Shown here one piece after another: positions 8,634 through 24,161 of a stretch of DNA of 64,000 nt (positions are counted from its first letter, which is position 1; every line of letters begins with the position of its first letter). Origin of the DNA: Corynebacterium aurimucosum ATCC 700975 (GTDB lineage: Bacteria > Actinomycetota > Actinomycetes > Mycobacteriales > Mycobacteriaceae); the NCBI RefSeq assembly GCF_000022905.1, contig NC_012590.1, positions 434,001 through 498,000 on the forward strand, read 5' to 3'. Position numbers and translations under genes: made by a program. The notes beneath the pieces are model-generated. The model was not told the origin of the DNA and did not search any database. It saw only the letters and a program-made list of their open reading frames with translations.

Positions 8634-8721
8634 TGTCGCAGTAATCGGTGCGCGGCGGGGGCGGCGGGGCAACGAGTGTGCAACGAACCGAGAACGAGAA
8701 ATTCTTTTGGTGCGTCTTTTA

Positions 8722-8939: not shown

Positions 8940-9482
8940 GTGAACGACCACCACGCCGACCGCACTGCGACCACCCGCACCACCGTCGAGGAACTCCTCG
9001 CCGAACCTGCCCTCGAGTCCATCGTGGGCTATGTTCCAGGCGGCTTCGATATGCTCCACATCGGCCACCTCAACATTCTGCGCGCCTCGCGCAAGCTGTG
9101 CACCACGCTCATTGCCGGCGTGGCCACCGACGAGTCGCTCATTCGCATGAAGAACCGTGCTCCCATCGTCCCGCACGCTGAGCGCATGGAGCTCGTGCGC
9201 AGCTTGAGCTTCGTCGACGGCGTGATCGCCGACCATGACCAGGACAAGCGAGTCGCGTGGGAAGAAGTGCACTTTGACGTGCTCTTCAAGGGCGACGACT
9301 GGAAGGGTACGGAAAAGGGTGCGCGCCTGGAGGCTGAGCTCGCTGAGGTCGGTGCCCGCGTGGTCTACTTGCCGTACACGAAGTCGACCTCGTCGACGAT
9401 GTTGCGTAAGTTCCTGGCCCACGAAATCGCGGAGCGCGACGTGGCGCTCACCGGCGCTGGTGCCGCACGGGAAGAGGCATAA
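8940..9482 (+). CDS. TagD-like cytidylyltransferase
   Basis: A 180-residue nucleotidyltransferase of the HxGH superfamily. GGFDMLHIGHL (34-44, His40 and His43) is the nucleotide-binding motif, and a KSTSSTMLR motif near the C-terminus matches the second conserved site. Family members activate glycerol-3-phosphate or related alcohol phosphates with CTP. The gene starts with GTG and is followed 6 bases later by a CDP-alcohol phosphotransferase, so its product is probably a CDP-alcohol used by the neighbour. It is the first gene of a run of glycan genes. The exact alcohol cannot be read from sequence. Confidence 0.8.
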   Translation: MNDHHADRTATTRTTVEELLAEPALESIVGYVPGGFDMLHIGHLNILRASRKLCTTLIAGVATDESLIRMKNRAPIVPHAERMELVRSLSFVDGVIADHDQDKRVAWEEVHFDVLFKGDDWKGTEKGARLEAELAEVGARVVYLPYTKSTSSTMLRKFLAHEIAERDVALTGAGAAREEA

Positions 9483-9488
9483 GGACCG

Positions 9489-10250
9489 ATGGCGACGACA
9501 CAGTCTCGTTTTAGCTGGGCGATCGCGCAGCTTGACGCCGCGCAGAAGCCCGCGCAAGGCGTACCCGCGTATATGCGCTGGGTCAACCGGCGCGGTGCCC
9601 GCGTGATTGCGGCGCTGGGCTATCAGCTGCGCTGGACGCCGAACCAGGTCACGGCCATCTCCGCGTGCCTGTCGGTGGCGGGCATGCTCGTGCTCATCTT
9701 CGCGCCGTTTGCCGTGTCGACGGGCGTACTTGCTGCAGTCCTGCTCGCGCTGGGCTTCCTTTTTGACTCCGCGGACGGCCAACTGGCGCGCGTGTCCAAG
9801 CTGTCGTCGAAGTCGGGCGAGTGGGTTGACCACGTCGTCGACGCGTTTCGCTCGCCGCTCGTTCACGTGGCCGTGGCCATCGCGGTCACGGCCCACGAGG
9901 GCCCGTACTCATGGCTGGCCTTGGTGGCGCTCGGGTACTCCGTTGTGACGAGTGGGCAGTTCCTCAGCCAGATTCTTGCTGAGGCGCTGGTGCGCAAGGC
10001 AGGCGCGCAGCAGACTCGCGGCGGCAACCTGCGCTCGTGGATTTTGTTGCCTACCGACCCAGGTGTGCTGTGCTGGAGCTTTGTCTTCTGGGGCTGGGCG
10101 CCGGCCTTTGCCGTGGTCTACGGACTACTCGCCGCCGTCGCCGCGGCGCACTCTGCGGTTTCGCTCACGCGCCGTTTTAAAGATCTCTCGGCCGTCGACC
10201 GCGCCGCAGCGGAGCTTGCCGATGTCCCCTCTGGAGGTGCTCATGCCTAG
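9489..10250 (+). CDS. CDP-alcohol phosphotransferase, membrane enzyme
   Basis: A 253-residue integral membrane protein with the full CDP-alcohol phosphatidyltransferase signature: D96-G97-x2-A100-R101-x8-G110-x3-D114-x3-D118, preceded by Asp93. About six membrane helices surround it. Such enzymes transfer a phospho-alcohol (or phosphatidyl group) from a CDP carrier to an acceptor. With the cytidylyltransferase directly upstream it probably consumes that CDP-alcohol to make a lipid or to decorate a polysaccharide. Its stop overlaps the next gene's start (ATGCCTAG, 10243-10250). Confidence 0.87.
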   Translation: MATTQSRFSWAIAQLDAAQKPAQGVPAYMRWVNRRGARVIAALGYQLRWTPNQVTAISACLSVAGMLVLIFAPFAVSTGVLAAVLLALGFLFDSADGQLARVSKLSSKSGEWVDHVVDAFRSPLVHVAVAIAVTAHEGPYSWLALVALGYSVVTSGQFLSQILAEALVRKAGAQQTRGGNLRSWILLPTDPGVLCWSFVFWGWAPAFAVVYGLLAAVAAAHSAVSLTRRFKDLSAVDRAAAELADVPSGGAHA

Positions 10251-11124
10251 GCTCAGCGTCCTCCTGCCGGCCCGCAACGCGCAGAACACCGTCGGTGAGG
10301 CGGTCTCCTCGACGCTGCGGGCCTTACCGCGCGACGCGGAGCTCGTCGTCCTCGACGACGGCTCCACTGACGCGACGGCGGCCCGCGCGGCGGACGCAGG
10401 CCGGGGCGATGCGCGTCTGCGTGTGGAATCCCAGCCGCCCTCTGGTGGCATCGCCGTAGCGCTGAACTGGCTTCTCGCGCACACGGACTCCGAGTTGGTG
10501 GGGCGCATGGACGCCGACGACATCACGCTGCCGTGGCGCTTCCGCAGCGCGCTGCCTGCACTCGGACGTGGCGCGGACATCGTGTTTAACCAGGTCCTCT
10601 ACACCACAGGGGCGCGGACGCGTCCCGCGGTGCCACTGGGCATTACCCCGGCGGCGTTTGGCCTGCACCTGCTCCTGACGAATCCCGTCTCGCACCCAGC
10701 GATGGTTGCGACGCGTGCGGCACTCGACTCCGTACGCGGCTACCGCGCGGTGCCCGCCGAGGATTATGACTTGTGGATGCGCGCCGTCAGCGCGGGCTTC
10801 CGCCTGCGCCGCCTGGGCGTGTGGGGGCTCAAGTACCGCGTCCACCCGGATCAGATCACGGCGTCGACTACGTGGCGCAGCGCGTCCTGGGATAACGCGG
10901 ACCAGGCGGAGGCTTTCGGGGACTTGAGCGCGGCGCTCGTAGGCGAGCGTCTCACCCGCATTGTCACCCTCGCGCAGCATGACGCCTCGACTCGCGAACG
11001 GGAACTGGCGCACTTCGCCGACCTCATTCGCACCGCTGGTCGCCGCCTAGGCCCCGTCCAGCACGCCGCCCTGGAACATCGCCTGCGTTCGCGTCTTGCG
11101 TGGGCGCGCGATATTTCTGCCTGA
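10243..11124 (+). CDS. Family 2 glycosyltransferase
   Basis: A 293-residue GT-A fold enzyme: the N-terminus LSVLLPARNA, the nucleotide-binding LDDGSTDAT and the metal-binding DAD motif in GRMDADDIT are all present. The later PAEDYDLWMR is the usual acceptor/base region. The ATG at 10243 has GGAGG just upstream and overlaps the previous stop by 8 bases. It is cytoplasmic and predicted to add a sugar to the lipid-linked repeat unit. Donor and linkage are unknown. Confidence 0.88.
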   Translation: MPRLSVLLPARNAQNTVGEAVSSTLRALPRDAELVVLDDGSTDATAARAADAGRGDARLRVESQPPSGGIAVALNWLLAHTDSELVGRMDADDITLPWRFRSALPALGRGADIVFNQVLYTTGARTRPAVPLGITPAAFGLHLLLTNPVSHPAMVATRAALDSVRGYRAVPAEDYDLWMRAVSAGFRLRRLGVWGLKYRVHPDQITASTTWRSASWDNADQAEAFGDLSAALVGERLTRIVTLAQHDASTRERELAHFADLIRTAGRRLGPVQHAALEHRLRSRLAWARDISA

Positions 11125-11172
11125 CCTTATCATCTTTTCTGTCCGTCCCCTTTGATTGAGGATCGTAAATTC

Positions 11173-12318
11173 ATGAACGACACCCGAAATGCCCCGTCTG
11201 ACGCCGTGGGTTTTGACGTCTTGTGGGCTGCGCTCACCCAGCGCCCGCGGTGGATTGCCGTCGGCATCGTGGCGGGGCTCATCGCCGCGGCGGTGTACCT
11301 GGTGGTTACGCCGTGCAATTACGTGGCGAGTACCCAAGTCAACGTCGCCGCCGTGAGTGCCGACCCGCTGGTGGGGGACAAGGCGCCGTCGACGCTCGTG
11401 GACTTTTCCACGGAGCTGCAGATCGCCAAGTCTGCGGAGACGGCGCGCGCGGCGAAAGAAAAGCTCGGCGAGGACTGGACCACGGAGGAACTCCAGGGCG
11501 TGGAAGCGTCCGGTGATGCCGAGGGAACCGTGGTGACGTTGACATACGCGAACCCGGACGAGGACCGCGCTATCGTGGGCGCCGATGCCTTGGCAACGGC
11601 GTACCTGAGCCAGCGCGTAAGCCTGACCCGGGCCCGCGTGGAGGACACGAAGGCCTCTCTCGATGAGGCTATCGCGCGCTCCCAAGAAGATTTTGGTACC
11701 TCGACGAACGTCGTGCAGAAGGACATTTTGTCGCAACGTCTCGCTACGCTGCGCGACCGCCGGGCGGCTCTGAGCTACGTGAGCTTTGATGCTGGCAGTG
11801 TTATCGCCGCAGCAGGGGATAACCCGGTGTATCGCTCCCCGTCGCCGGTCAAGTTCCTCCTCGCGGGTGCGCTGGGCGGTCTCGTCTTCGGCGTCGTCCT
11901 TGCCTTATTGGCCTATACCTGGATGCGCCGCCCGCGCTCGATCGCGGATCTAGAGCGCGTCTTCCACGCGCCCGTGTTCATCGGCGTCGGCGCCGCGGGC
12001 GATGCCCAGCGCTGGGACCTCGCCGCCGCCCAAGCGGCGCACGCGACCCGCGGTGCCCAAGGTGTGACCGTGCTGCGTGATGGTGAGGACGCCGAGACCG
12101 TTGCGGCTGCAGACGCCGTTACACACGCCACAGGCGCTCAGATGCTCGCGGCCGACACCCACCGCGCTGAGCGGCTCGCCGCCGTACAACAGGGAACCGA
12201 CGTGCTCCTCGTGGGCCCGGTGCGCTGGACCACGACGCAGTGCGCGGAGCTGCAGCGCGACCTCGCGAGCGTGGGCGTGACGCTGCGCGGCATCATTACG
12301 ACCGCTGCGAAGCACTAA
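11173..12318 (+). CDS. Wzz-like polysaccharide co-polymerase with kinase-like remnant
   Basis: A 381-residue protein with two membrane helices (about 27-48 and 222-246) flanking a mostly helical extracytoplasmic region, the layout of chain-length determinants. The ~115 residues after the second helix resemble the fold of a BY-type tyrosine kinase (a DVLLVGPVRW strand and a GVTLRGIITT C-terminus), but no Walker A glycine/lysine loop and no tyrosine cluster are present. The ATG at 11173 is preceded by GAGG; an upstream TTG in frame is less likely. It probably sets polymer length with the Wzy-like protein encoded two genes downstream. Confidence 0.75.
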   Translation: MNDTRNAPSDAVGFDVLWAALTQRPRWIAVGIVAGLIAAAVYLVVTPCNYVASTQVNVAAVSADPLVGDKAPSTLVDFSTELQIAKSAETARAAKEKLGEDWTTEELQGVEASGDAEGTVVTLTYANPDEDRAIVGADALATAYLSQRVSLTRARVEDTKASLDEAIARSQEDFGTSTNVVQKDILSQRLATLRDRRAALSYVSFDAGSVIAAAGDNPVYRSPSPVKFLLAGALGGLVFGVVLALLAYTWMRRPRSIADLERVFHAPVFIGVGAAGDAQRWDLAAAQAAHATRGAQGVTVLRDGEDAETVAAADAVTHATGAQMLAADTHRAERLAAVQQGTDVLLVGPVRWTTTQCAELQRDLASVGVTLRGIITTAAKH

Positions 12319-12330
12319 GGGAGGCCACGA

Positions 12331-13653
12331 ATGACGCACTCCACCGTCCGCCCGGGCGCAGACAAGCCCGGCACGCCTGACCCTGCGGATATCGACGTGC
12401 TCGATATCGCACCTATCGCCATTGCGGTTTACGACCGCGGCACCGACACTCTGGAGATTCTCTCCGGTGATGAGAACGCCGAGCCTTCGTCCCACGAGGC
12501 CCGCGTGCTCATCCGCGAAGACGGACACACGCTGGGCTACCGCGAGGTCACTGGCAGTCCTTTTGTTCCGCTCGATGAGCAGGAGCTGCACCGCCTCGCC
12601 CAAGCCGAGGCCGCCGGCCTGCCTGGTGTCCAGCGCGCGTGGACGCAGGGTGCGGGCGCGGGGCTGAGCGCCAGCCTTATTCTGTGCACGATGGGCCGCA
12701 ACCCGTTGCTCCCACGCGCCGTGGCGGCGGCGCTCGCGCAGACACACAACGACCTTGAGGTCATCGTCGTCGATAACGCGCCTGCTACGGGGGATACCCG
12801 CCGCGCACTGGCAGGCATCGAGGACCCGCGTTTGCGCATCGTCGACGAACCCCGGGGCGGCTTGTCCCATGCCCGCAACCGCGGCGTGGCAGCGGCCCAG
12901 GGCGAGATCATTGCGTTCAGCGACGATGACGCGCAGGTGCATCCGGAGTGGATGGCCAGCATCCTTGACGTCTTCGCCGCGGCCCCCGCCGGACAGATCG
13001 GCGCCGTGACCGGACCCGTCTTCCCCGCGCAGTTGCGCTATCCCTCGCAGTTCCTCTTTGAGGATCGCGGCGGTTTCCCCAAGCAAGTGCGCCCCACCGT
13101 CTGGGCCAGCGCCCCGCAACCCGCGGCGGTGCGTGCGTTGGGCGATCCGGGCGAAGGCGGCCCCTTCTTCCCCTTGACTACCGCGCGCGTCGGTGCCGGC
13201 GTCTCCATGGCGTATCCGCGTGCCGTCCTCTCCGAGATGGGCGAGTTCGACACCGCGTTGGGGGCCGGCAGCCTGACTAAGGGCGGCGAGGACCTCGATG
13301 CCTTCGCGCGTGTACTGCGTGCCGGTCGCGCCATCATCACAACGCCCGACGCGGTCGTTCACCACACCCACCGCGAGAACGTCGCCGGCCTAATCGCGCA
13401 GTCGTACGGCGATGGAACCGGCATGGCGGCGCTGCTCACCAAGGCGGTGACGCACCATCCCGCTGCGATCGCCTTGCTCGCACGCCGCATTCCGCGCATC
13501 CTGCGTCGCATCGCGCCGGGTTCGGAGCGCGTCCAAGGCAATGCGGGCAGCGGCTTGCCGATGCCCCCTCAGTTGCTGCGCCAAGAAATCCGAGGTTTCC
13601 TGCGTGGACCTGTTCTCTACGCGCAGGCCCGGTGGGCGACGAGGGCGTCATGA
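12331..13653 (+). CDS. Family 2 glycosyltransferase with extra N-terminal domain
   Basis: A 440-residue protein. Residues 1-110 form an acidic extension with no recognised family. The GT-A domain begins at SLILCTMGRN and includes EVIVVDNAP, the DxD-type FSDDDAQVHP and a C-terminal GEDLDAFARV motif. The role is transfer of a sugar onto the growing repeat unit. Its TGA overlaps the start of the Wzy-like gene (ATGA, 13650-13653). Confidence 0.85.
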   Translation: MTHSTVRPGADKPGTPDPADIDVLDIAPIAIAVYDRGTDTLEILSGDENAEPSSHEARVLIREDGHTLGYREVTGSPFVPLDEQELHRLAQAEAAGLPGVQRAWTQGAGAGLSASLILCTMGRNPLLPRAVAAALAQTHNDLEVIVVDNAPATGDTRRALAGIEDPRLRIVDEPRGGLSHARNRGVAAAQGEIIAFSDDDAQVHPEWMASILDVFAAAPAGQIGAVTGPVFPAQLRYPSQFLFEDRGGFPKQVRPTVWASAPQPAAVRALGDPGEGGPFFPLTTARVGAGVSMAYPRAVLSEMGEFDTALGAGSLTKGGEDLDAFARVLRAGRAIITTPDAVVHHTHRENVAGLIAQSYGDGTGMAALLTKAVTHHPAAIALLARRIPRILRRIAPGSERVQGNAGSGLPMPPQLLRQEIRGFLRGPVLYAQARWATRAS

Positions 13654-14960
13654 GCACGGGCGCGCACGACGCAGCGCGCCTGCCTGCTTGGCCGTTGCTC
13701 GCTCCGTTTGCCGCGTACGCGCTGTGGTGGCTGCTGGGAGTAGGAGACTTCATCTGGATTGTGGCCGCGGCCGTCATGGTCGTCACGTGGTTCGGCCGCC
13801 GGGAACTCGTTGCCGCAGTCCCGATTATTATCTGGGCGTTGTTTTTGCTGTGGGTCGTTGCTTCGGTGCCGTTCAACGACACCCCGGGGCGCATCATCGG
13901 CGCGGTCTACCGCCTGTTGCTCTATGCCTCGGCCGGCGTCTTCGCAGTCCACGTCTACTCGGCGCGGGGGAGTCTGCCGGCGCACCGCGTGACGCGGGCG
14001 ATGGTGTGGTTCCTCGTGGGCATGACCGCATGCGGTTACCTCGCGATGGCAGCGCCTGAACTCGTTATCCGCACGCCCACGTCGTATGTGACCCCGGGCT
14101 TCCTTAAACACAACGACCTCATCGCGGACATGGTCATCCGTCGCACTTCGCAGTGGAACCCGAATGCCTGGGTCGCCCAGGACGTTCGCCCGGCCGCGCC
14201 CTTCCTCTATGCGAATACGTGGGGTAACGTGTATTCCCTCGTCTTGCCCTTGGTGCTGCTCCACGCGTGGTTCGTGCGCAACAGCCCTCGCATGTGGGGC
14301 GTGCTGGCCATCGCGCTGGTGAGTCTGCCACCGGCCTTGGCGACGCTCAACCGCGGCATGTTTATCGGACTGGGCGTTGTCGCCGTGTGGGTGGGCTTTC
14401 AGGCTCTGCGGCGTGGCGCCATGCGCGCGGTGGGCAGCGCCGCACTGGGGCTCGTCCTCATCGCGACGGCGTGGTATTTCTCGCCCCTGGGCGCGAGCTT
14501 CTTTAACCGCGTCTCCACGACGAACTCCACGGACGACCGGTGGGCGCTCTACCGCACGACGTGGGCTCGCACGCTCGAGTCCCCGCTCTTCGGCTTTGGT
14601 TCTCCGCGCCCGGCGGAATATCCCTGGCTGCCGTCGCTCGGTACCCAGGGTCAGCTGTGGACCGTGCTGTTTTCCCATGGCATCGTTGGTCTCGTGCTGT
14701 TCCTACTGCCCTTCGTGCTGGGTTGGATTGCGCTCATGCCGTGCCGTGACCCTGCGGGAGCCGTCCTTGGCGGTGTTCTGCTCGCCACGCTCGTGGAGAC
14801 CTTCTTCTACGGCATGATGACAGGCGTGCTGGTTTCGCTCGTGGTGCTGGGCCTGGGGCTTCGCCACCGCGCCGCCGAGACCCAGAATCCCCTCCATCCT
14901 GCATCCCGGCGCACCGCCGCGGCGTCGGCGTCTCGGGCGGCATCCGCGCGGGCTCGCTAG
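13650..14960 (+). CDS. O-antigen polymerase/ligase-like membrane protein (Wzy/WaaL superfamily)
   Basis: A 436-residue polytopic protein with about ten to twelve helices and a large outer loop (around residues 140-200 and 290-330) containing the STDDRWALYRTTW and FGFGSPRPAEYPWLPS segments. Loop position and the conserved Arg/His-rich stretch are typical of O-antigen polymerases and ligases. It should polymerise or attach lipid-linked repeat units on the outer face of the membrane. The ATG at 13650 has GAGGG upstream and overlaps the preceding stop. An upstream GTG (13632) is possible. Confidence 0.82.
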   Translation: MSTGAHDAARLPAWPLLAPFAAYALWWLLGVGDFIWIVAAAVMVVTWFGRRELVAAVPIIIWALFLLWVVASVPFNDTPGRIIGAVYRLLLYASAGVFAVHVYSARGSLPAHRVTRAMVWFLVGMTACGYLAMAAPELVIRTPTSYVTPGFLKHNDLIADMVIRRTSQWNPNAWVAQDVRPAAPFLYANTWGNVYSLVLPLVLLHAWFVRNSPRMWGVLAIALVSLPPALATLNRGMFIGLGVVAVWVGFQALRRGAMRAVGSAALGLVLIATAWYFSPLGASFFNRVSTTNSTDDRWALYRTTWARTLESPLFGFGSPRPAEYPWLPSLGTQGQLWTVLFSHGIVGLVLFLLPFVLGWIALMPCRDPAGAVLGGVLLATLVETFFYGMMTGVLVSLVVLGLGLRHRAAETQNPLHPASRRTAAASASRAASARAR

Positions 14961-14993
14961 CGGTGCGAGCCGTAAGCGAGGCGTGTCACGCGT

Positions 14994-15770
14994 CTAGCAG
15001 CGTGGATCGTCCGGGAAGCTCGTCTTCATCAGCTTCCACTGGCCGTCGACGCGCTCGAAGGTGAGCAACGTGATCGAGCGACGTTCGCTCGCCGGCAGGT
15101 TCGGGGTGATATCCGTGCCGTCGGCGTCGAAGGTACGCACCCCGGAATTGTCCACACAGGCGCGCACCACGCGCGTCGTGCCGTCCGAGGCGCCCTCGTC
15201 GGCAGGCGCCAGTGCGACGGCCTCCACGACCTCACCGGTGCCTTCTCGGCGCCAGCCATTGGACTCGTATTCGATGCGCTGGTTCTCCGCGTCCTCGAGC
15301 GCGTCGGCACCCAGGGCCTCGGAGGCGCGTGCCGGTAGCGCCTCGCTCGGGTTCGTAAGGGCTTCTTGCCCTGCGGCGAGGGCCGCACCGACGCCCTGCG
15401 CATCAAGCCCCGCGGGCATCTCCATCGTCGCGGTGGGAGAGTGCGGTGCTGCAGCGCGGCCAGCACGCGGCGTGTCCTTCGCGTCCCCGTCGGACGAGCC
15501 GCCGCGGCGTCCCGACCCTAGCTCCTTCGCGGCATCGGTAGTTTCTGCCGCACCAGATGTAGGTGCCTGCGAGGTCGATGACGCGGACGCCGAGCGTGTT
15601 TCTTTGGTGCTTTCAGTGGCCAAGGCCGGCGCATCCGTGGCGGTGTTCTCGTCCGCCTCGTCCTTGCTACAGGCAACGAGGCTAGCGACCAAGGCAATTC
15701 CGACGCTTGTCGAGAAACCTTTTCGCAAAAAACCTTGCCGACCATGAAAAGAGTATTTAAAATCCCGCAT
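14994..15770 (-). CDS. Secreted lipoprotein of unknown function inside the glycan locus
   Basis: A 258-residue protein. The N-terminal basic/hydrophobic segment ends in the lipobox LVAC (Cys34), so it is predicted to be a lipid-anchored surface protein. A Ser/Thr/Ala-rich low-complexity linker (40-110) leads to a C-terminal domain with two cysteines (ACVDNSG and DDPRC) resembling the NTF2/transport-associated type of fold. It is the only minus-strand gene within the plus-strand glycan run, which suggests its own regulation. It probably starts leaderless, with TAAAAT 7 bases before the ATG. Confidence 0.75.
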   Translation of the reverse strand: MRDFKYSFHGRQGFLRKGFSTSVGIALVASLVACSKDEADENTATDAPALATESTKETRSASASSTSQAPTSGAAETTDAAKELGSGRRGGSSDGDAKDTPRAGRAAAPHSPTATMEMPAGLDAQGVGAALAAGQEALTNPSEALPARASEALGADALEDAENQRIEYESNGWRREGTGEVVEAVALAPADEGASDGTTRVVRACVDNSGVRTFDADGTDITPNLPASERRSITLLTFERVDGQWKLMKTSFPDDPRC

Positions 15771-15783
15771 GATTCTTATTTTA
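15768..15783 (-). promoter_or_regulatory. -10 element for leaderless lipoprotein mRNA
   Basis: TAAAAT on the minus strand (15783-15778), then 7 bases (AAGAATC), then the ATG at 15770. No Shine-Dalgarno sequence is present. Confidence 0.45.
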
Positions 15784-15888
15784 TCCAGACATCCTATAGG
15801 GTGTTAATGAGATGAATGTACAGGAATCTAGAAAGAAATAGAACTGGCTTATTGATAGCTATTAAAAAGCCGTAGAAAGTGAAAGTAT

Positions 15889-17475
15889 ATGAGCGCACCA
15901 AGAGCTGGCGCAGAGACCGCGGCTAACGACCGTGCGCACGACGCGTCCGCAGCGACGGCGGCGGCAGAGAACTCGGGCTCACAGCAGCGCGAACTCGCCC
16001 GCGGCGGAGCCTTAAGCTTTGTCGGATCGGCGACCAGCGCAGCCTTGGGTTTTGTCCTCACCATCGTCATTTCGCGACTTTTTGGTGCGGCACACGCGGG
16101 AATTATTTTTCAGGCTACTGGTGCGTTTTCCGTCGTCCTTGCCTTTGCCAAATTCGGGCTGGATTCGACGTCAAATTACCTTCTTCCCCGCGTAAAGATC
16201 GACGATGCGCGGCAGGTTCGCCCTGTCGTCTACGGCTTCCTTATCATTGCGGTGGCCGTGAGTCTGGTGCTCGTTGTTGCACTGGAGATCGCCGCGCCCT
16301 TATTGTGGACTGACAACCCCGAGGTCGCGCGCTCGGTGCGCGTGATTGCGCTCTTTATTCCTTTCGGCTCTGTATTTCTCATCCTTGCTGCCATCCTGCG
16401 TGCCCTGGGCTCAGTGCGCGACTACGTGATGGTGGCAAATATCGGCCTTCCCGTCCTGCGTCCGCCTTTCATCGCCGTCGTGGCGGTAGCGGGTGGCGCG
16501 GCGGTGGCGGCATCGGCGGCGTGGGCACTGCCCATGGCGCTCATGGCGGTGGCGGCAGCCGTGCTAGTGCTGCGGCGCCTACGCCGTATCGAAGAGGTTC
16601 ATGGTGCCTCGGAGCGTGCGCTGCCGCGCGCGAGCCAGGTCCGTGAGGTCTTCGGGTTTGCGGTCCCGCGCACGCTGTCCGCGGGACTGGAACAGGCCAT
16701 TGTGTGGTTCGACGTGTTGCTTGCCGGCTGGCTTCTTAGCGACCACGCGGCAGGCATCTACGCCGGCGCCTCCCGCTTCGTTCAAGCCGGCTTGCTTGTC
16801 GATGCCGCGCTGCGCGTCGTCGTTTCCCCGCAACTGTCCGCATTGCTGCACCGCGGCGAGATGTCGCGTACCCGCGAGCTTTACCTCACCGCCACGATGT
16901 GGCTCGTGCTCATTGGCACGCCGGCGTACGTGTTTTTGGGCTTCTTCGCGCCGATCTTCCTCGGGCTGCTGGGCCCTGAGTTCCGCGAGGGCGGAACGGC
17001 GCTGGCGGTTCTTGCGGCAGGCGTGGCCGTGACGTTCTTGGCGGGCAATATCCACTCGCTGCTCGTTATGAGCGGCCGCAGTGGATGGGCCGCGTTCAAC
17101 AAGCTCGTCGTCTTGGCCGTCAACGTCGGCGCGAATTTCGTGCTCATGCCGCGCTACGGGATCATCGGCGCCGCCGTGGCGTGGTCCGCTTCGATGGTGC
17201 TTGATGCGCTCATGGCCGCCGTCGAGGTCAAGGTCTTTCTGGGCATTGCGCTCACGGCGCGGGAGATTCTTGCCCCCGTCGCCGTGGTGCTCGGCACGCT
17301 TGGCCTCGCTTCCGGTGTGGCGGTGTGGCTGGGTGGCCAGAGCCTGTGGGCGCTCCTCGGGGCGCTTGCGGTCGGCGGTGCTGCGTATATCGCAGTGTGC
17401 TGGCGGTGGCGCGCGCTGCTACGCCTTGGAGCGCTGGGCGAGCTCGTCGCCGCCAAACAAGGAAAGCGCTCGTGA
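15889..17475 (+). CDS. Wzx-like polysaccharide flippase (MOP superfamily)
   Basis: A 528-residue protein with about fourteen membrane helices after a 45-residue Ala-rich cytoplasmic leader. The order of helices and the GGALSFVGSA start of the first helix fit oligosaccharide flippases of the MOP superfamily. It should move the lipid-linked repeat unit across the membrane for the Wzy-like enzyme. The ATG at 15889 has only a weak purine-rich site upstream (GTGAAAG). The fibrinogen-like gene follows after 53 bases. Confidence 0.85.
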   Translation: MSAPRAGAETAANDRAHDASAATAAAENSGSQQRELARGGALSFVGSATSAALGFVLTIVISRLFGAAHAGIIFQATGAFSVVLAFAKFGLDSTSNYLLPRVKIDDARQVRPVVYGFLIIAVAVSLVLVVALEIAAPLLWTDNPEVARSVRVIALFIPFGSVFLILAAILRALGSVRDYVMVANIGLPVLRPPFIAVVAVAGGAAVAASAAWALPMALMAVAAAVLVLRRLRRIEEVHGASERALPRASQVREVFGFAVPRTLSAGLEQAIVWFDVLLAGWLLSDHAAGIYAGASRFVQAGLLVDAALRVVVSPQLSALLHRGEMSRTRELYLTATMWLVLIGTPAYVFLGFFAPIFLGLLGPEFREGGTALAVLAAGVAVTFLAGNIHSLLVMSGRSGWAAFNKLVVLAVNVGANFVLMPRYGIIGAAVAWSASMVLDALMAAVEVKVFLGIALTAREILAPVAVVLGTLGLASGVAVWLGGQSLWALLGALAVGGAAYIAVCWRWRALLRLGALGELVAAKQGKRS

Positions 17476-17528
17476 CTTGGCGCCTCGGTGCCGCTTTCGC
17501 AGCGAAACACAACTTTAGAAAGAACTCC

Positions 17529-20500
17529 ATGTCTCACTCACGATTTTCGCTTCTCGCCGCAGCGGTTGCGCTGTGCGCCGGTATCCTCGCGCCCGTCGCA
17601 GGCGCGCAGGAGCCGGCGCCGAGTCCAGCGGCACAAGACACCCCGGCCGTCGTCACGCGGGACGGGTCCAGCCCGGACCGAGCTGCCGCGTCCTGTTGGG
17701 CTATTAAACAAGACAACCCTGATGCCAAGAACGGCTCCTACTGGCTGCTCACCCCGCAGATGGAGGCGCCGCAGGAATTCTTCTGCGATCAGGAAATGGA
17801 CGGTGGCGGCTGGGTCATGATTGGTCGCGGCCGCGAAGGTTGGGACCGTTACCCCGCAGGCCAAGGCGATATTTCCGCGCTCACTAGCCGTGATCGCACC
17901 CCGGCGGACTTCGCTCCGGCGCAGCTGCCCACCAAGACCATCGATGGTCTGCTGAGCGGCCAGCACATCAACGAGTTGGACGAGGGTATGCGCGTCGTGC
18001 GTGCCACCAATAACTCCGGTACGCGCTGGCAGACCGCGGATATCAAACCGCAGCGCATGGAGAACTGGTCGTGGGCGCTTTCCGCCGAGGACCCGGCGCT
18101 CTTCCGTTTCGATAATGGGCCCTTGTGGTACCGCGCAGACCGTACGGACAGGTTCATGGGCAACGCCATCGGCCTGCGCGGCATAGATATTTCCACCACG
18201 CGGGCCCGGCAATACAAGATCGGCTTCGGCTATGGCCCGTGGAAAAGGGTCGGCCGTACGGGGGCTGACTCATTTATTTGGAGCACGAATGGATATGCCG
18301 CGCTGCCGTACGCGGAGCTGTATCTGCGCCCGCAGCTGAGCAACGCCGATGCCGGATTTGAGCCCATCCCGGATGCCGGCCTCGACGAGGTAACGAATTC
18401 CGCAGTCGTCTCGAGCTTCTCGTCGCCCACGCAGTGGGGCGTGACAGGTAACCTGACCGGCCGTAGCACCGAGGGTAACGCCCCCGTGCAGGCCTTTGCG
18501 CAAAAAGACGACACCGTCTTCGTGGGCGGCAATTTCACGGCGGCAGAAAACCACGCGACGGGCGAGTCCCTCCCGCGCACCGCGGTCGCCGCGTTCGACG
18601 CCACCACGGGTGAGGTCCGCCGCGACTTTGCCGTGGATCTCGACGGTCAGGTCAAGGCTCTCCTCGTCCTGCCCAACGGCAAGCTGCTTATCGGCGGTGA
18701 TTTCCTGCGCGCCGGCGGCGAAGAGCACCGCGGCACCGTCCTCGTGGATCCGAAGACGGGCGCTATCGATGCATCGTGGACGCTCAACGTCGTCTCGCGT
18801 CTGCGCGACGGCATTATCAGCGTCAAGGCGCTGTCTCTCTCCGGGGACCATGTTTACCTCGGCGGTAAGTTCACCCACCTCACCAGCGGCGGCGACAATT
18901 ACATCTACGCGCGTTCCGCAGGCCGCGTGAGCCTGGACGGCGTGCCGGACCGCTCGTGGAATCCCGAATTCAACGGCACCGTGGTGGACACGGACGTCTC
19001 GGCTGACGGCGGGCGTTTCTACGCGGCGGGCTACTTCACGAAGTCCGTGGACAACCCGGTGAACAAAGCAGCGGTCCTCACCACGGCCGCAGGTGCCGCT
19101 CCGGCCGTGGACTTCCAGTTCCAGGCCAGCGACACCAGCGCCACCTACCAGCAAGCCATCGAGGATTCTGGCGAGCTCGTCTTCATTGGCGGCGCCCAGC
19201 ACTCCCTCTTCGGTTACGAGCCGCAGAGCATGAACCGCGTCTCTGGCTCCATCATGAGCTCCAACGGCGGCGACGTGCAGACTATCGCTTCCAACGGCGA
19301 GGTCACCTACGCCAGCTGCCACTGCAATGAGAACGCCTACCAGGATTCCTACTCGTGGCCGACGCTGAGCGAGTCCCGCACCCGCATCGACAACATCCAG
19401 TGGGTCGGTGCCTGGGACGCCAAGACCGGCAAGCAGCTGGGCGAGTTCTCACCGTACATGCTGGGGTCGAACAACGGCGGCGGCTGGTCGCTGTTCATCG
19501 CGGAGGACGGCGCGCTGTGGGCTGGCGGCGACTTCACCGGTTCCCGCACGAATCTCACCACAGCACAGTGGAACGGCGGCTTCGTCCGCTACCCGGCCCA
19601 GGACCGCGAGGCTCCCCGCGTGCCGGATAAGGTCACCTTCAACCAATCTACTGCGAAGACCGTCGGCCTGACCTGGGCTGAGGCTTCCGATGCCGCCAGC
19701 TACGAGGTCTTGCGTGACGACCGCGTCGTCGCGACGTCGATCAGCCCGCGCGCCACCGTGCCGCGCGGTGGCGATGACCGCTACTTCGTCCGAGCAGTGG
19801 ACGAGGCGGGCAACCGTTCCGCGACGACCCACGTGGCCGTCGCGCCGGAGGCAGGTTCGCTCGGCTACGACGACCCTCAGCTCATCGCCGCGGGCGCGGA
19901 CTGGCAGTACTCCTATAACCAGGGCGCGCCGGACGCTGCGTGGAATACCACCGAGGGCACGCGCGACGGATGGCAGGCGGGTGCTGCGCCGCTGGGTTAC
20001 GGCGGCGCGGATCTCGGCACCGAATTCCAGACGCCGGCCGCGGCACAGCGCCCCGTCACCGCGTGGTTTGCGCATCTCTTCGACGTCGCGGACCCGACAG
20101 CGTTTACGACGGCGACGCTTAAGGTCATTGCCGATGATGGCGCTGTGGTCTACGTCAATGGCCACGAGGTCGGACGCGTCCGCATGGACGAGGGCGACGT
20201 GAAGGACACCACCCGCGCGAATGCCGTGGTCTCCGCCGCGCGCGCCGCAGAGGAGCGCACGACGATCGACATCCCGTCCTATTACTTGAAGCCCGGCGAA
20301 AATATCGTCGCTGTGGAAACCCACCTCAATTACAAGTCCAGCCCGTCCCTGACTTTCGACGCGTCGTTGCTCGTCACGGATTCGGCACCGGCCACCATCA
20401 CGGAGATTCCGGTGGACCGCAGCGAGCTCATCGCCGCGGGCGCGGACTGGCGCTACTCCTACGCTGCCGATGCCCCCGCCGAGGATTGGGCCACCACCCT

Positions 20501-21110
20501 CGACGTCGCAGACTGGAACGAGGACGCCGCTCCCATCGGCTGGGGTGCTGGTGACGTTGCCACGCCGTTGACCTACGCCGCGAACACCGCGTACTTCGTT
20601 AACGACATTGAGCTCTCTGAGGACGACCTCGCCGCCTTGCGTGAACAACACGGCGACGACGCGGTGGTGCGTCTCGAGGTCCGGGCCGACGATGCCGCGC
20701 TTGTGCGACTCAACGGCGAGGAAGTCGGCCGCGTCCGCTTGGGCGAGCCTCGGTCTGAGGTCGCCCACACCGCGTATGCGGATAGCTCCGTGAGCGCGTC
20801 GGTTGCCGCGCGCGACCGCTATGTCGTCGAGGTTCCGCTGTCGCGCTTCCATGCGGGCAGCAACCGCCTGGCCGTCGAAACCCACCTCAATTATAAGTCG
20901 GCTCCGTCCTTCGTCTTCGACCTCAGCGCCACGGTCACCGAGCCCTCGGGCGATCCCGCCCTCGCCGCGCTGGCCGAAGCCGCCGCGGACCTCGCCGAGG
21001 ATTCCGTCGCAGAAGCCGATGACGATGCCGCAGAAGCCGAGCTCACTGACGATGCCGCTGCCGACGACGTTGACGCTGCAGCTTCTGCAGACGCAGACGC
21101 GGAACAATAA
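17529..21110 (+). CDS. Large secreted fibrinogen-like multidomain protein
   Basis: A 1,193-residue exported protein. A signal peptide ends near AGA-Q (residue 26). Residues 50-280 form a fibrinogen-C-like domain with Cys56, Cys86 and the motif FFCDQEMDGGGW. Residues ~320-690 carry at least six copies of a strand motif of the type FVGGNF / LIGGDF / YLGGKF / WAGGDF, probably a beta-propeller. A fibronectin type III-like module (~694-777) follows, then two copies of a ~170-residue jelly-roll-like module (from ~785 and ~967) and an acidic Ala/Asp/Glu tail. There is no LPxTG motif. The start has AGAAAGAA upstream. Binding to, or processing of, the glycan made by the flanking genes is inferred from context. 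Confidence 0.8.
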   Translation: MSHSRFSLLAAAVALCAGILAPVAGAQEPAPSPAAQDTPAVVTRDGSSPDRAAASCWAIKQDNPDAKNGSYWLLTPQMEAPQEFFCDQEMDGGGWVMIGRGREGWDRYPAGQGDISALTSRDRTPADFAPAQLPTKTIDGLLSGQHINELDEGMRVVRATNNSGTRWQTADIKPQRMENWSWALSAEDPALFRFDNGPLWYRADRTDRFMGNAIGLRGIDISTTRARQYKIGFGYGPWKRVGRTGADSFIWSTNGYAALPYAELYLRPQLSNADAGFEPIPDAGLDEVTNSAVVSSFSSPTQWGVTGNLTGRSTEGNAPVQAFAQKDDTVFVGGNFTAAENHATGESLPRTAVAAFDATTGEVRRDFAVDLDGQVKALLVLPNGKLLIGGDFLRAGGEEHRGTVLVDPKTGAIDASWTLNVVSRLRDGIISVKALSLSGDHVYLGGKFTHLTSGGDNYIYARSAGRVSLDGVPDRSWNPEFNGTVVDTDVSADGGRFYAAGYFTKSVDNPVNKAAVLTTAAGAAPAVDFQFQASDTSATYQQAIEDSGELVFIGGAQHSLFGYEPQSMNRVSGSIMSSNGGDVQTIASNGEVTYASCHCNENAYQDSYSWPTLSESRTRIDNIQWVGAWDAKTGKQLGEFSPYMLGSNNGGGWSLFIAEDGALWAGGDFTGSRTNLTTAQWNGGFVRYPAQDREAPRVPDKVTFNQSTAKTVGLTWAEASDAASYEVLRDDRVVATSISPRATVPRGGDDRYFVRAVDEAGNRSATTHVAVAPEAGSLGYDDPQLIAAGADWQYSYNQGAPDAAWNTTEGTRDGWQAGAAPLGYGGADLGTEFQTPAAAQRPVTAWFAHLFDVADPTAFTTATLKVIADDGAVVYVNGHEVGRVRMDEGDVKDTTRANAVVSAARAAEERTTIDIPSYYLKPGENIVAVETHLNYKSSPSLTFDASLLVTDSAPATITEIPVDRSELIAAGADWRYSYAADAPAEDWATTLDVADWNEDAAPIGWGAGDVATPLTYAANTAYFVNDIELSEDDLAALREQHGDDAVVRLEVRADDAALVRLNGEEVGRVRLGEPRSEVAHTAYADSSVSASVAARDRYVVEVPLSRFHAGSNRLAVETHLNYKSAPSFVFDLSATVTEPSGDPALAALAEAAADLAEDSVAEADDDAAEAELTDDAAADDVDAAASADADAEQ
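19881..20370 (+). repeat. Internal duplication, copy 1
   Basis: Encodes the first ~165-residue module beginning LIAAGADWQYSY and ending near VETHLNYKSSPS. It shares 24 identical bases at its start and a nearly identical stretch near its end with copy 2. Confidence 0.75.
20427..20931 (+). repeat. Internal duplication, copy 2
   Basis: Encodes the second module, beginning LIAAGADWRYSY and containing NGEEVGRVRLGE where copy 1 has NGHEVGRVRMDE. It ends VETHLNYKSAPS. The nucleotide identity at both ends points to duplication within the gene. Confidence 0.75.
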
Positions 21111-21122
21111 GGAGAATCCCGC

Positions 21123-21879
21123 ATGACGTATAACAGCACCACCGACCGCGTCCCGTCCAGCGCGGGCGCATCACCTGCACCGGATCCGGCCGTGGCGGAG
21201 TTCGCTCGGCGCATCGCACGACCCGGCGCCGTGGTCACATGGCTTAACCACTGGTCGGTGCAGCAGGCGCAGTGGTCTGCGCTCGAAACCATGACGGACA
21301 TCGGCATCGACGGCACGCTGCTTCAGCTCATGCTGGCGCGTTGCGGCATGGACATGGGCCGCACCTCGGCCGACCTCGTCCTTCCGGTCCTGTTTCGTGA
21401 CGTCCTCGAGCCGGACCAGCGCATTGCGTTCATCGGCTCCGCGCCGGGCGTGGCGACGCGGGCGGCGGAGCGCATCGGCGGGCACCAGACCTGCGCCTTC
21501 GACGGCTACGGCGAGCTCAAGGAGCTGCGCCGCGATCCGTCGCAGCTGCGCGCCTGGCGTCCCGACGTCGTCGTGCTGGGCCTAGGCGCACCGCTGCAAG
21601 AGGAAGTCGCTGCCGAGCTGCACGTTGCGCTGCCCGAAGCCATCGTGTGTACCAGCCGGTGGCTGGATCGATCAGCTGGCCGCCAATGAGCAGTACTTCC
21701 CGGTGTGGGTCCACAAGTACCGCCTAGGCTGGGCGTGGCGCATAGCGCACGAGCCGCGCCGACTCATCGGCCGCTACACCGTCGATGCAGTCGGCTTCCT
21801 GCGCCGCCTGCCGCGCATCGTGTCTGACCTTCGGGTGCTGCCCCACAAGGCCGACGCCACGGGCTTCCACCGCGGCTAA
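21123..21879 (+). pseudogene. WecG/TagA/CpsF glycosyltransferase interrupted by a +1 frameshift
   Basis: Family GT26 enzymes transfer ManNAc-type sugars to lipid-linked acceptors. Frame 21123-21689 encodes the N-terminal three quarters (IDGTLLQLML, RTSADLVLPV, VVVLGLGAPLQEE). It then reads out of family and stops after SRWLDRSAGRQ. The conserved C-terminus (GGWIDQLAANEQYFP, WAWRIAHEPRRLIGRY) is in another frame from 21655 to 21879. Removing one base near 21651-21654 (ACCAGCC to ACCGCC) restores GGWIDQ in frame. Translated as is, the protein has 188 residues and lacks its C-terminal helices. It starts 12 bases after the fibrinogen-like gene. Confidence 0.82.
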
Positions 21880-21895
21880 ATCCCTCACGCACAAG

Positions 21896-21932
21896 AGCCT
21901 GGCTCCAGCAAATGCTGGAGCCAGGCTTTTTC
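21896..21932 (+). terminator. Rho-independent terminator of the glycan operon
   Basis: A perfect 15-bp stem (21896-21910 with 21913-21927, arms starting AGCCTGGCTCC) with a tiny AA-centred loop, followed by TTTTTCT. Confidence 0.93.
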
Positions 21933-22052
21933 TCTGCCGTCAGTTTTCTGTCGCCAGCAGCCTTGCTGCGTTGGCGAGCGCGCCGGCCCGCCGCGGCTCC
22001 TCGGGCCTGCGCGCCGTGACTGCCGTGGCGCATATGGCATGAGCGACGAAAG

Positions 22053-22105
22053 AGCTCCCTCTGCGGCCGTCAGGGAGTGAGAACACCGCAGGGGGAGCTA
22101 AGTGG
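22053..22105 (-). terminator. Hairpin downstream of the sugar transferase gene
   Basis: AGCTCCCTCTGCGG (22053-22066) pairs with CCGCAGGGGGAGCT (22086-22099) over 14 positions with one G-T. Read on the minus strand it follows the sugar transferase stop and is trailed by CTTTCG, a poor U-tract. Confidence 0.5.
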
Positions 22106-22118
22106 CGAAGAAGGCGGT

Positions 22119-22805
22119 TTAGTACGCGCCTTCTTGCGTGGCAAGCACCTTGAAGGTGCGGAAGAAGATCATGATGTCCATGCCGAACGAACGCTCAGCA
22201 CAGTAGCGCAGGTCCAGGTTGATGGAGTCTTCCCACGACAAGGTGGAACGCCCCATAACCTGCCACAGGCCCGTGATTCCCGGCTTGGCGTTGAACTTGC
22301 CCAGCTCACGCGGGGTGAACTTGGCGACCTCGCGCGGCAGCGGCGGGCGCGGTCCGATAAGCGACATGCGGCCGGTGAGCACGTTGAAGAGCTGTGGCAG
22401 TTCGTCGAGGCTTGTGCGGCGCAAGAAGCGGCCCACGCGCGTGATGCGCGGGTCGTCCTGCAGCTTGAAGAGCACCTCGTTGCCAGCGTTGCCTGCGGAG
22501 GCTTGGGCGGCGAGGAGCTGGTCCACGAGCTGCTCGGCGTTCGTGCGCATGGTGCGGAATTTGAGCATGGTGAAGTGTCCCTGGCGGTAGCCGACGCGGG
22601 TCTGCGCGAAGAAGACCGGGCCGCCATCGTCAAGCTTGATGAGGAGCGCAACGATGAGCAGGACAGGAGAGAGAAGAATGAGCGCCGTTGCGGAGAGTAG
22701 AATGTCGCTGATGCGCTTGGCCCCCGTGTACAGCGCCGGGGCGTCGGACGAACGATCCGGGATGACAGCGAGGGTACTCGCGGGACGGAGATTGGGAGTC
22801 GTCAT
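22119..22805 (-). CDS. Initiating sugar transferase (undecaprenyl-phosphate sugar-1-phosphate transferase)
   Basis: A 228-residue bacterial sugar transferase of the WcaJ/ExoY C-terminal type with one N-terminal membrane segment (about 31-58). Conserved blocks include GGPVFFAQTRVG, KFRTMRTNAE, GRFLRRTSLDELPQL, SLIGPRPPLP and GITGLWQVMGRS. It starts repeat-unit synthesis by loading a hexose-1-phosphate on the lipid carrier. It is convergent to the frameshifted WecG gene, and a long AT-rich region lies upstream. Confidence 0.9.
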   Translation of the reverse strand: MTTPNLRPASTLAVIPDRSSDAPALYTGAKRISDILLSATALILLSPVLLIVALLIKLDDGGPVFFAQTRVGYRQGHFTMLKFRTMRTNAEQLVDQLLAAQASAGNAGNEVLFKLQDDPRITRVGRFLRRTSLDELPQLFNVLTGRMSLIGPRPPLPREVAKFTPRELGKFNAKPGITGLWQVMGRSTLSWEDSINLDLRYCAERSFGMDIMIFFRTFKVLATQEGAY

Positions 22806-23241
22806 GAGTTCCTTAGTTGAGCATTACTGGTCGCAGCAGCGCAGAAAGCCTGCGCGCAGATTTATTCGGTTTATAAAACAACTGCTTTTAGGAAAAGCTT
22901 TTGAATTAACCGAGAATTGAGTACAAAGCTTAGAGAATTACAGAAAATTGATCAAGCTGTTTTAGGCACGCCAATTGTCAAGTTGTTGTGATCCTGGGGG
23001 GTTGGGTGCCTCTGTTTCCTACTTTTAGTAGGTAACAGGCTTAAGGGACATTTGTGTGGGATTTGTGGTGTCGATTCATTCCTTGAGCTGGGGCAATGTG
23101 CGGATATTGAATTGGAATCAGTTCCAACCGAGGTTTAGCCCTCAAATACGCCGGTCATTGCCAACCTGTGGTATTTGAATCTGCTACGGCAATTCTTATG
23201 ACAGGTCTAGGAATCGCCCAGCATGCCCGATCTGCGGAACA
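22806..23241. other. AT-rich gap upstream of the sugar transferase
   Basis: No credible gene. It holds the sugar transferase promoter region and a dyad (23012-23038, CTGTTTCCTAC / GTAGGTAACAG, loop TTTTA, one mismatch). The last ~30 bases read NRPACPICGT in one frame, a half zinc-finger that looks like the N-terminus of the IS1249-type transposase resumed at 24546. Confidence 0.5.
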
Positions 23242-23279
23242 GGGCCTGACCCCCGGAAAGTAGACACGTCGGGGGTTAG

Positions 23280-24161
23280 CTATGCTGCTTGGGTCAGTGT
23301 AGCTGATGTGAGTGCTTCGAAGTCATCGGGGGCTAGAAGGTTGCACCAGGAGTGCCGTCTGCGCGTGTTGTAGCGCATGCACCATCGGAAGACTTCTTGG
23401 CGGCAGATGATGGGATTGTCAAAAACTTTCCTATCTCGCAGAACTTCACGCTTTAAAGTGGCGTTAAACGATTCTGCCAGGGCATTATCGGCACTCGTTC
23501 CCACTGCTCCCATGGATTGGCGAACACCAAGTTGGGTGCAGTGGTCTTGAAAAGCCTGTGAGGTGTACACACTGCCATGATCAGAATGGAAAATTACCCC
23601 TTTAAGGCTTCCGCGAACCTTGCTGGCATGGGACAAAGCTTCGATAACCAGCGATACCCGCATGTGATCGGCGAGCGCATGACCGACAAGTTTGCGCGAG
23701 TAGACGTCGATGACTGTGGCAAGGTACATGTTCTTGCCTCCCTTACACGGCAGGTAGGTGATATCGCCTACATACACCTGGTTCGGCTTATCAGCGGTGA
23801 ATTTGCGGCCTACTAAATCTGGCATGACTCGATGACCAGGCTTGCGCCTGGTAGTGACACATCGACGTTGTTTAGTAAAGCCTTTTAGCCCCATGGATTT
23901 CATAATGCGTGCGACCTTCTTGTGATTGATCGGAGGAAAGTCCGTATCGGCTTTAAGGCTTGCAGCGATGCGTTTAGCACCATAAAGCCCGTGCTCATCA
24001 TCGAAGATGCTCTTGATTCTCGCACCAATAAGGGCATCGGAACACGTCTTTAACCTGCGTTTTTCGCGGGTGTTGACCCATTTGTAGAACGAGGAGCGAT
24101 TGAGCTTTAACACGTGGCACATCCGTGTGAGCTGAGTATTCGGTTCGGTGGTCGTAGACAA
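23280..24161 (-). pseudogene. IS3 element A transposase orfB, frameshifted near its N-terminus
   Basis: A 293-residue readable frame with an rve-type DDE core: D in GDITYLP, D in FHSDHGSVYTS and E in NALAESFNATLK. The usual N-terminus (VIRFQFVYDHRTEYS) is present but in the -1 frame overlapping the orfA end. One extra base near 24132 breaks it from LTRMCHVLKLNRSSFYKW. As written, orfB has only a TTG start and lies in the same frame as orfA after its stop, which is atypical for IS3. Transposition is probably impaired unless the base is an assembly error. Confidence 0.75.

Follow-up and report, generated by a model that had tools for sequence, protein, structure and literature searches.

The cytidine diphosphate (CDP)-alcohol phosphotransferase (CDP-AP) family is best known for phospholipid synthesis. 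One member, AF2299, uses CDP-glycerol as donor, carries a cytidylyltransferase-like domain and is reported to hold the glycerol in a small hydrophilic pocket, as opposed to the lipid groove of phosphatidylinositol phosphate (PIP) synthase (PMC4634129). Wzx/Wzy capsule or exopolysaccharide loci, such as the region of Corynebacterium glutamicum with cg0419, cg0420, cg0424 and cg0438 (PMC7305114) and the wps clusters of Actinoplanes (PMC13390465), comprise an initiating transferase, glycosyltransferases, Wzx, Wzy and Wzz. A 64,000-nucleotide stretch of the Corynebacterium aurimucosum ATCC 700975 genome (contig NC_012590.1, positions 434,001 to 498,000; hereafter the window) brings these two together in a ten-gene cluster that probably makes a surface sugar polymer bearing a small phosphate-linked alcohol, along with a large secreted sugar-binding protein. 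The cluster recurs in many actinobacteria.

The locus shares an initiating transferase, glycosyltransferases, Wzx and Wzy with such loci, and has a Wzz-like gene besides. The main text of the Actinoplanes paper mentions no CDP-alcohol, cytidylyltransferase, fibrinogen, propeller or LamG (PMC13390465); PMC7305114 was not searched for these terms. As in AF2299 and the archaeal bifunctional CDP-inositol enzyme (DIPP synthase), the phosphotransferase has the signature of the family, is paired with a cytidylyltransferase and would use a hydrophilic donor. In contrast to both, the pair is encoded here by two separate genes set in a Wzx/Wzy locus, and the acceptor is presumed to be a lipid-linked glycan; no cytidylyltransferase-CDP-AP fusion occurs among the 91 loci compared below. 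Like the glycerophosphate transferases of teichoic acid and capsule synthesis (TagF/TagB, PF04464), the enzyme would use CDP-glycerol from a TagD-like enzyme, but it belongs to a different protein family. All parts are of known families, and what appears new is their combination and the presence of a CDP-AP in a Wzx/Wzy locus. The original prediction had named the locus as a candidate for an undescribed system, and no system-level description was found in the open literature, subscription papers and preprints lying outside that search. Its contrast with the arabinogalactan and lipoarabinomannan of the genus was too narrow, given the Wzx/Wzy-linked surface polysaccharide region of C. glutamicum (PMC7305114).

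Our preferred reading, held with modest confidence, is a polymer made by the Wzx/Wzy route that bears a phospho-alcohol, with phosphoglycerol as the likeliest, and is accompanied by a dedicated secreted lectin-like protein. It is built on gene content, the catalytic signature, conservation, co-occurrence, two domain folds and the absence of alternative transferases from seven carriers.

Gene content and recurrence of the locus

Apart from the lipoprotein, the genes were assigned by scoring Pfam and NCBIfam models against the cut-off of each model.

8940-9482, plus strand: TagD-like cytidylyltransferase, 180 amino acids (aa) (CTP_transf_like PF01467, 55 bits), proposed maker of the CDP-alcohol
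9489-10250, plus strand: CDP-AP, a membrane protein of 253 aa (CDP-OH_P_transf PF01066, 49.4 bits), proposed to transfer the phospho-alcohol to a lipid-linked glycan
10222-11124, plus strand: GT2 glycosyltransferase a (GT2a; PF00535, 65.5 bits), start chosen inside the frame 9952-11124
11152-12318, plus strand: Wzz-like chain-length regulator (PF02706, 24.8 bits, just below the cut-off of 25.5; EpsF-type NCBIfam model, 31.5 bits, cut-off 422.75)
12331-13653, plus strand: GT2 glycosyltransferase b (GT2b; PF00535, 84 bits)
13650-14960, plus strand: Wzy-like polymerase or ligase-fold protein (Wzy_C PF04932, 35.3 bits, cut-off 31.7, a model that cannot separate polymerase from ligase), start chosen, frame from 13632
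14994-15770, minus strand: lipoprotein confined to the fibrinogen-like subtype (LVAC judged lipobox-like by eye; nothing above cut-off in Pfam or NCBIfam)
15889-17475, plus strand: Wzx-like flippase (Polysacc_synt PF01943, 44.3 bits, cut-off 28.2)
17529-21110, plus strand: secreted giant protein (GGGWT_bact fibrinogen-like NF040941, 63.6 bits, cut-off 30), start chosen, frame from 17325
21123-21689, plus strand: GT26 (WecG/TagA/CpsF) reading frame (Glyco_tran_WecG PF03808, 42.7 bits, cut-off 27.4)
22119-22805, minus strand: initiating phosphoglycosyl transferase, short form, 228 aa (Bac_transf PF02397, 225.6 bits)

From 8940 the plus strand carries, in this order, the TagD-like, CDP-AP, GT2a, Wzz-like, GT2b, Wzy-like, Wzx-like, giant and GT26 genes. 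They overlap or are spaced by at most 53 bases, save for the gap of 928 bases from Wzy to Wzx, which houses the minus-strand lipoprotein gene. The initiating transferase stands outside this run and is the only PF02397 gene found in a search of the 2.82 Mb genome. The G+C fraction is 0.663 for 8940-21880 and 0.620 for the remaining window minus 21881-22810. The observation of these genes at the places first proposed was confirmed, and three points were corrected: the strands of the lipoprotein and of the initiating transferase, and the GT26 frame, which is cut short. The idea that a CDP-alcohol pair belongs to a glycan locus of its own, of the Wzx/Wzy type, is also supported, Wzx, Wzy and the initiating transferase scoring above their cut-offs and the set recurring across genera.

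Within the genus, the cluster phosphotransferase was found in 9 of 201 genomes, that of the window included (profile E < 1e-80). Weak matches around 1e-11 or 1e-12 in three further genomes were assigned to other members of the family, and an overlapping sample of 24 other genomes of the genus yielded three weak matches only. All nine carriers keep the ten-gene order, with the lipoprotein on the minus strand between Wzy and Wzx. The initiating transferase follows the cluster on the minus strand in seven of them (split in genome G751) and precedes it on the plus strand in two.

The comparison across genera covered 91 loci, namely the window, the best 80 of at least 547 encoding stretches from named genomes, and ten further loci. 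They were chosen as near relatives of the phosphotransferase and may include duplicates between the named loci and the rest; of the 80 named loci, 12 are shorter than 20.6 kb. The profiles were seeded from window proteins, with second propeller and LamG models derived from one protein of genome G147. Matches were obtained in 76 loci for the propeller domain of the giant, 67 for the TagD-like enzyme, 65 for Wzz, 49 for GT2b, 39 for the initiating transferase, 33 for Wzx, 30 for Wzy, 28 for the CBM-like part of the giant, 26 for the lipoprotein, 15 for GT2a and 5 for GT26. The TagD-like enzyme and the propeller occur jointly in 57 of the 91 loci and are both missing from five. The original prediction was built around a CDP-alcohol pathway and a fibrinogen-like protein. 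The fibrinogen-like domain marks one subtype (29/91) and was rejected as a hallmark: a LamG domain takes its place in 33/91 loci, never together with it, and the constant partner is the propeller. In the 29 fibrinogen-like loci, Wzx was found 29 times, Wzy 28 times and the lipoprotein 26 times, against 4, 2 and 0 in the other 62; the TagD-like gene is present in 23/29 and 44/62, respectively. The low Wzx and Wzy counts outside this subtype may be an effect of the window-seeded models.

Co-occurrence across Actinobacteria had been proposed as a check, and homologous loci of inconsistent gene content as a refuting outcome. Gene content proved consistent across genera, with the same order in the nine Corynebacterium loci and in three Actinomycetaceae loci (Actinomyces/Schaalia, L055-L057), where nine genes were within reach. 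Recurrence of the ordered set beyond Corynebacterium makes it more than a chance assembly. As controls, models for TagD, initiating transferase, Wzz, Wzx, Wzy, lipoprotein, GT26, fibrinogen-like domain, propeller, CBM and LamG were run on five loci around distant CDP-AP genes and on two 19 kb window stretches. No other cluster family was found there save GT2, with matches in four of the five loci.

At the level of the class, the CDP-AP profile matched 97 of 296 sampled genomes at 1e-10, 31 of them strongly (E < 1e-60); strong and weak matches are split by a clear gap, from 4.5e-64 to 2.8e-19. A propeller match was present in 31/31 strong carriers and in 52/265 other genomes (Fisher p 6e-20, a value that ignores kinship). 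Eight of the 31 carriers had supplied rows for the CDP-AP alignment, and the sequences aligned for the propeller came from CDP-AP loci themselves. In 28 of the 31 carriers the two genes share a contig and are within 33 kb of each other, in 21 within 10 kb. In the other three, the propeller match is on another contig in two and has no position among the matches listed in one. A phylum-wide query with a single sequence gave strong matches in 8 of 396 genomes, that of the window counted, all eight with a propeller match. Because propeller repeats of this family are common in their own right (51/396 phylum genomes, 83/296 class genomes), its presence alone means little, and it is nearness that counts.

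A maximum-likelihood tree was built from 97 phosphotransferases, two duplicate records and matches under 150 bits being omitted. The Corynebacterium and Actinomycetaceae proteins form one 12-row clade (100/98), in which Actinomyces provencensis and two Schaalia are nested among Corynebacterium rows (95/97, 94/88). This nesting would fit transfer between the two groups. The fibrinogen-like subtype falls into a weakly supported 37-row group, mostly within a 34-row clade (100/91). The phosphotransferase of a locus titled Planococcus sp. APC 4015 (L080) groups with Microbacterium (100/96 with L094), and the record is possibly contaminated or misnamed.

Other families accompany some of the 91 loci. 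DUF1972-type GT4 enzymes are found in 25, another glycosyltransferase family (GT4-like by eye) in 28 and a DUF4352 lipoprotein in 16, all of them LamG loci. The glycosyltransferases thus vary from group to group, and the glycan presumably with them, whereas the CDP pair and the propeller are retained. A right-handed beta-helix protein (e.g. L097:10748-12949) is encoded in 26 loci, of which 2 are fibrinogen-like, 9 LamG, 10 propeller-only and 6 propeller-less in the available DNA, L089 (LamG, no propeller) being counted twice.

Donor, alcohol and integrity of the pathway

Judged by its sequence, the phosphotransferase has the complete catalytic signature of the CDP-AP family, the eight-residue DxxDGxxAR..GxxxDxxxD as defined in PMC4634129. 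The residues D93xxD96G97xxAR101..G110xxxD114xxxD118 are invariant in 12/12 aligned orthologues, and the window protein also has a P(D/N)xx(T/S) motif. No arginine past R135 is invariant or nearly so in the 12 orthologues, the columns being unaligned to the acceptor arginines R153 and R191 of RsPIPS. The nearest solved relative is AF2299 (8.5e-12 by single sequence, 7.7e-11 by profile), and the soluble donor proposed for the cluster enzyme is based on this nearness in sequence.

The neighbouring cytidylyltransferase retains FD.LH.GH and GDDW. The motifs of its family were read from an alignment of 47 of 72 matches, the other 25 being missed by the first-motif pattern and excluded. Besides its partial score with TagD, it reaches 78.3 bits with the heptose-1-phosphate adenylyltransferase model, under the cut-off of 181.5. 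Its other solved relatives include TagD (9.3e-12) and 5x3d (1e-11). Alternative genes were searched for in seven of the nine Corynebacterium carriers, the window genome among them, and in seven carriers from other genera. The TagF/TagB-type CDP-glycerol glycerophosphotransferase domain PF04464 and LicD (PF04991) were each found in 0/7 Corynebacterium carriers. Both other transferase families considered as users of CDP-alcohols are thus absent from these seven genomes, for which the classical teichoic acid and LicD readings were rejected. Glycerol-3-phosphate is present in every cell, and CDP-glycerol is preferred for that reason, which makes phosphoglycerol the most likely decoration.

Several observations weigh against this reading. 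Inside the available DNA, 24 of the 91 loci have no TagD-like gene and 15 no propeller, and four class genomes (G511, G553, G655, G459) have a full-length propeller without a strong phosphotransferase match. The cytidylyltransferase scores well under the TagD equivalog cut-off (TIGR01518, 67 of 165.4 bits), its best solved match is an ethanolamine-phosphate cytidylyltransferase (1.1e-14), and the last motif of its family is YTxxTSSTxLR, as against RTEGISTT in TagD. Because its motifs and scores depart from those of TagD in this way, the alcohol is not fixed by sequence. PF04464 was found in 6/7 carriers outside Corynebacterium, as possible CDP-glycerol users, none within 90 kb of the phosphotransferase. 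Finally, among NCBIfam models the phosphotransferase scores highest with archaetidylinositol phosphate synthase (52 bits, under the equivalog cut-off of 180), whose donor we take to be a lipid, and a lipid donor for that reason keeps some weight.

The alternative that follows from this last point is that the CDP-AP uses CDP-diacylglycerol and makes a phosphatidyl-linked sugar-alcohol anchor for the polymer or its primer, the cytidylyltransferase acting in another step. We regard it as unlikely, though it is the most serious competitor. After archaetidylinositol phosphate synthase, the next NCBIfam matches are PIP synthases (two models, at 38 bits and at 37 bits, the second under its cut-off of 170) and then the CDP-inositol enzyme (34.4), and the profile also matches chains of PIP synthase (6wm5, 1.7e-6) and of CDP-diacylglycerol-inositol transferase (6h53, 1.3e-5). 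In all seven Corynebacterium carriers examined, the cluster CDP-AP is a third copy beside two elsewhere in the genome, which presumably have a lipid role. Nevertheless, the best solved match by both sequence and profile is the soluble-donor enzyme AF2299, RsPIPS comes at 0.034 only, and a TagD-like enzyme stands beside the CDP-AP in most of the loci.

A decoration by phosphoethanolamine or phosphocholine is doubtful. It agrees with the best solved match of the cytidylyltransferase and with profile matches of the phosphotransferase to choline/ethanolamine phosphotransferases. Phosphatidylserine decarboxylase was found in 0/7 Corynebacterium carriers, which disfavours ethanolamine, and LicD is likewise missing; scavenged ethanolamine or choline lay outside this search.

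The integrity of the locus bears on a further alternative. The GT26 gene is frameshifted near 21650 in the window strain: the frame measures 192 aa from stop to stop (188 aa from ATG), against 255 aa from stop to stop in G751, and the rest of the gene continues to about 21880 in another frame (read by eye). G751 is a near-identical genome (98.9 to 100% DNA identity over five aligned pieces) whose initiating transferase is split by an insertion sequence; the same insertion sequence adjoins the gene in the window, at about 23242-24546. Two near-identical genomes therefore carry different lesions, and an intact GT26 and an intact initiating transferase both exist, in different genomes. The lesions may have arisen as a costly surface trait was shed in culture, or may be assembly errors. 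As its GT26 gene is broken, the pathway may be off in the window strain.

It is improbable that the locus is an ordinary Wzx/Wzy exopolysaccharide locus with the CDP pair as a passenger, or a decaying one that makes nothing here. Both lesions would speak for such a reading, as would the presence of the cluster in so few genomes of the genus. The pair is hardly a passenger, since around the phosphotransferase (the search query of the loci) the TagD-like and propeller genes outnumber GT2b and GT2a, and decay agrees less well with lesions that differ between near-identical genomes, as happens when an active costly trait is lost.

Very improbable, and rejected for the window genome, is a polymer carrying a phosphonate (2-aminoethyl- or 2-hydroxyethylphosphonate) activated as a cytidine monophosphate ester instead of a phosphate ester: the clear PF13714 match of this genome is a methylisocitrate lyase (TIGR02317, 355.8 bits, cut-off 354.4) and no phosphoenolpyruvate (PEP) mutase (124 of 319.55), and its second match, at 25.7 bits, is below the cut-off of 31.5. 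No frame of at least 80 aa in the 91 loci contains EDK.....NS, which we take to be the PEP mutase motif. The best PF13714 match of five other Corynebacterium carriers has EDQVNPKRCGH (weaker G836 and G695 matches aside), G692 has no match above cut-off, and a G211 match 18 kb from the cluster is nearer to prpB (73) than to PEP mutase (41 of 319.55). What favours the phosphonate is the resemblance of the cytidylyltransferase to 5x3d (PDB name phosphoenolpyruvate phosphomutase), with which it shares GDDW and PYT..SSTxL, and the fact that nucleotidyl activation is described as common in phosphonate clusters (PMC6697681). Additionally, PF13714 matches occur in all 14 carriers searched, those of the seven outside Corynebacterium mostly not told apart. 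A nameable motif was present in 8 of 20 PF13714 stretches, from 13 carriers, and the rejection thus leaves the carriers outside Corynebacterium mostly aside.

Several neighbouring genes were also recorded. An rve integrase-core transposase (23280-24161, minus strand) and a Mutator-family transposase (24552-25415, plus strand) adjoin the cluster. Directly upstream lies an overlapping pair of dynamin-like GTPase genes (5336-6928 and 6921-8672, both minus strand), whose homologues in G836, G695 and G842 are about 4 kb past the opposite cluster end. Elsewhere, the window contains an ESX-like type VII secretion locus with EccB (PF05108, 44998-46341, plus strand) and an FtsK/SpoIIIE-type ATPase of 1301 aa (48757-52662, plus strand), and at 33807-36469 (minus strand) an FAD-binding protein beside a methyltransferase of the mycolic acid cyclopropane synthase family (PF02353).

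The secreted giant protein

The giant comprises a signal-peptide-like N terminus, a fibrinogen-like domain (about 17691-18383), a beta-propeller (about 18402-19676), an FN3-like linker, two CBM-like repeats and an acidic tail; signal peptide, linker, repeat number and tail were assigned by eye. AlphaFold models of two of its domains reached pLDDT values of 91.5 and 92.7, and structure comparison of these models gave a fibrinogen-like fold and a propeller fold. The fibrinogen-related domain has the YCDxxxxGGGW core in addition to the fold and to its NF040941 match; with the Pfam fibrinogen model PF00147 it remains below cut-off (14 of 22 bits). The comparison of the propeller with the PDB by sequence returned nothing useful. 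The CBM-like part matches PF14683 (polysaccharide lyase 4 domain III) at 24.2 bits, under the cut-off of 27.

It had been suggested that the secreted partner recognises or trims the glycan. Trimming finds no support, no catalytic hydrolase or lyase domain scoring above cut-off in Pfam or NCBIfam, and a hydrolase or lyase role was not adopted, the PF14683 match and the invariant residues of the propeller leaving room for one. These residues, H159, H267, D291, Q293 and C306-H307-C308, are the same in 25/25 aligned sequences, and LamG-type sequences show a comparable SHxHxC; the set possibly forms a metal site, a disulfide or an active site. Glycan recognition by the giant is plausible.

The fibrinogen-related lectins known as intelectins and ficolins are the nearest comparison. 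The giant differs from them in being bacterial, in its fusion to a propeller and CBM-like repeats, and in a divergent C-terminal half. The intelectin profile match is confined to roughly the first 50 to 60 residues, and the calcium and 1,2-diol binding site of intelectins lies in the C-terminal part. No intelectin appeared among the 50 best Foldseek rows. The label intelectin was not adopted for the domain, as structure comparison ranks many fibrinogen-like proteins less than about one Z unit apart and the match in sequence is limited to the N-terminal part.

Proposed pathway and its meaning

A phospho-alcohol-bearing polymer is well motivated but unproven. In the pathway that we propose, the initiating transferase (22119-22805) would load the first sugar phosphate onto undecaprenyl phosphate, and GT26 and the two GT2 enzymes would lengthen the repeat unit. 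The TagD-like enzyme would convert a common alcohol phosphate, most likely glycerol-3-phosphate, into a CDP-alcohol, from which the membrane CDP-AP, acting at the cytosolic face, would transfer the phospho-alcohol to a hydroxyl group on the lipid-linked oligosaccharide. Wzx would then flip the unit, Wzy polymerise it and Wzz set the length. Outside the cell, the secreted fibrinogen-like/propeller/CBM-like protein would bind the finished polymer and organise or retain it, perhaps via the phospho-alcohol. We infer which alcohol, donor and acceptor are used, that the transfer precedes Wzx, and what the secreted protein binds.

A broader proposal, tentative and rather unlikely to hold in full, is that the cluster represents an undescribed route to phosphoglycerol-bearing polysaccharides. 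A CDP-AP would decorate the undecaprenyl-linked repeat, and a secreted propeller protein of the same cluster, carrying either a LamG tail or a fibrinogen-like head related to intelectins, would read the mark on the finished polymer, forming an actinobacterial writer-reader pair across many genera of the class.

If the proposed pathway is true, a gene-defined and testable phospho-glycan would exist in roughly a tenth of the class genomes sampled (31/296), with carriers that, by record titles, belong to Corynebacterium, Schaalia, Rothia, Microbacterium, Amycolatopsis and Streptomyces. CDP-alcohol phosphotransferases, otherwise known from phospholipids and small solutes, would enter capsule-type assembly. 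The secreted protein would be a bacterial counterpart to animal lectins such as human intelectin-1, which is listed as recognising phosphoglycerol-bearing glycans (PMC7911577, Table 12).

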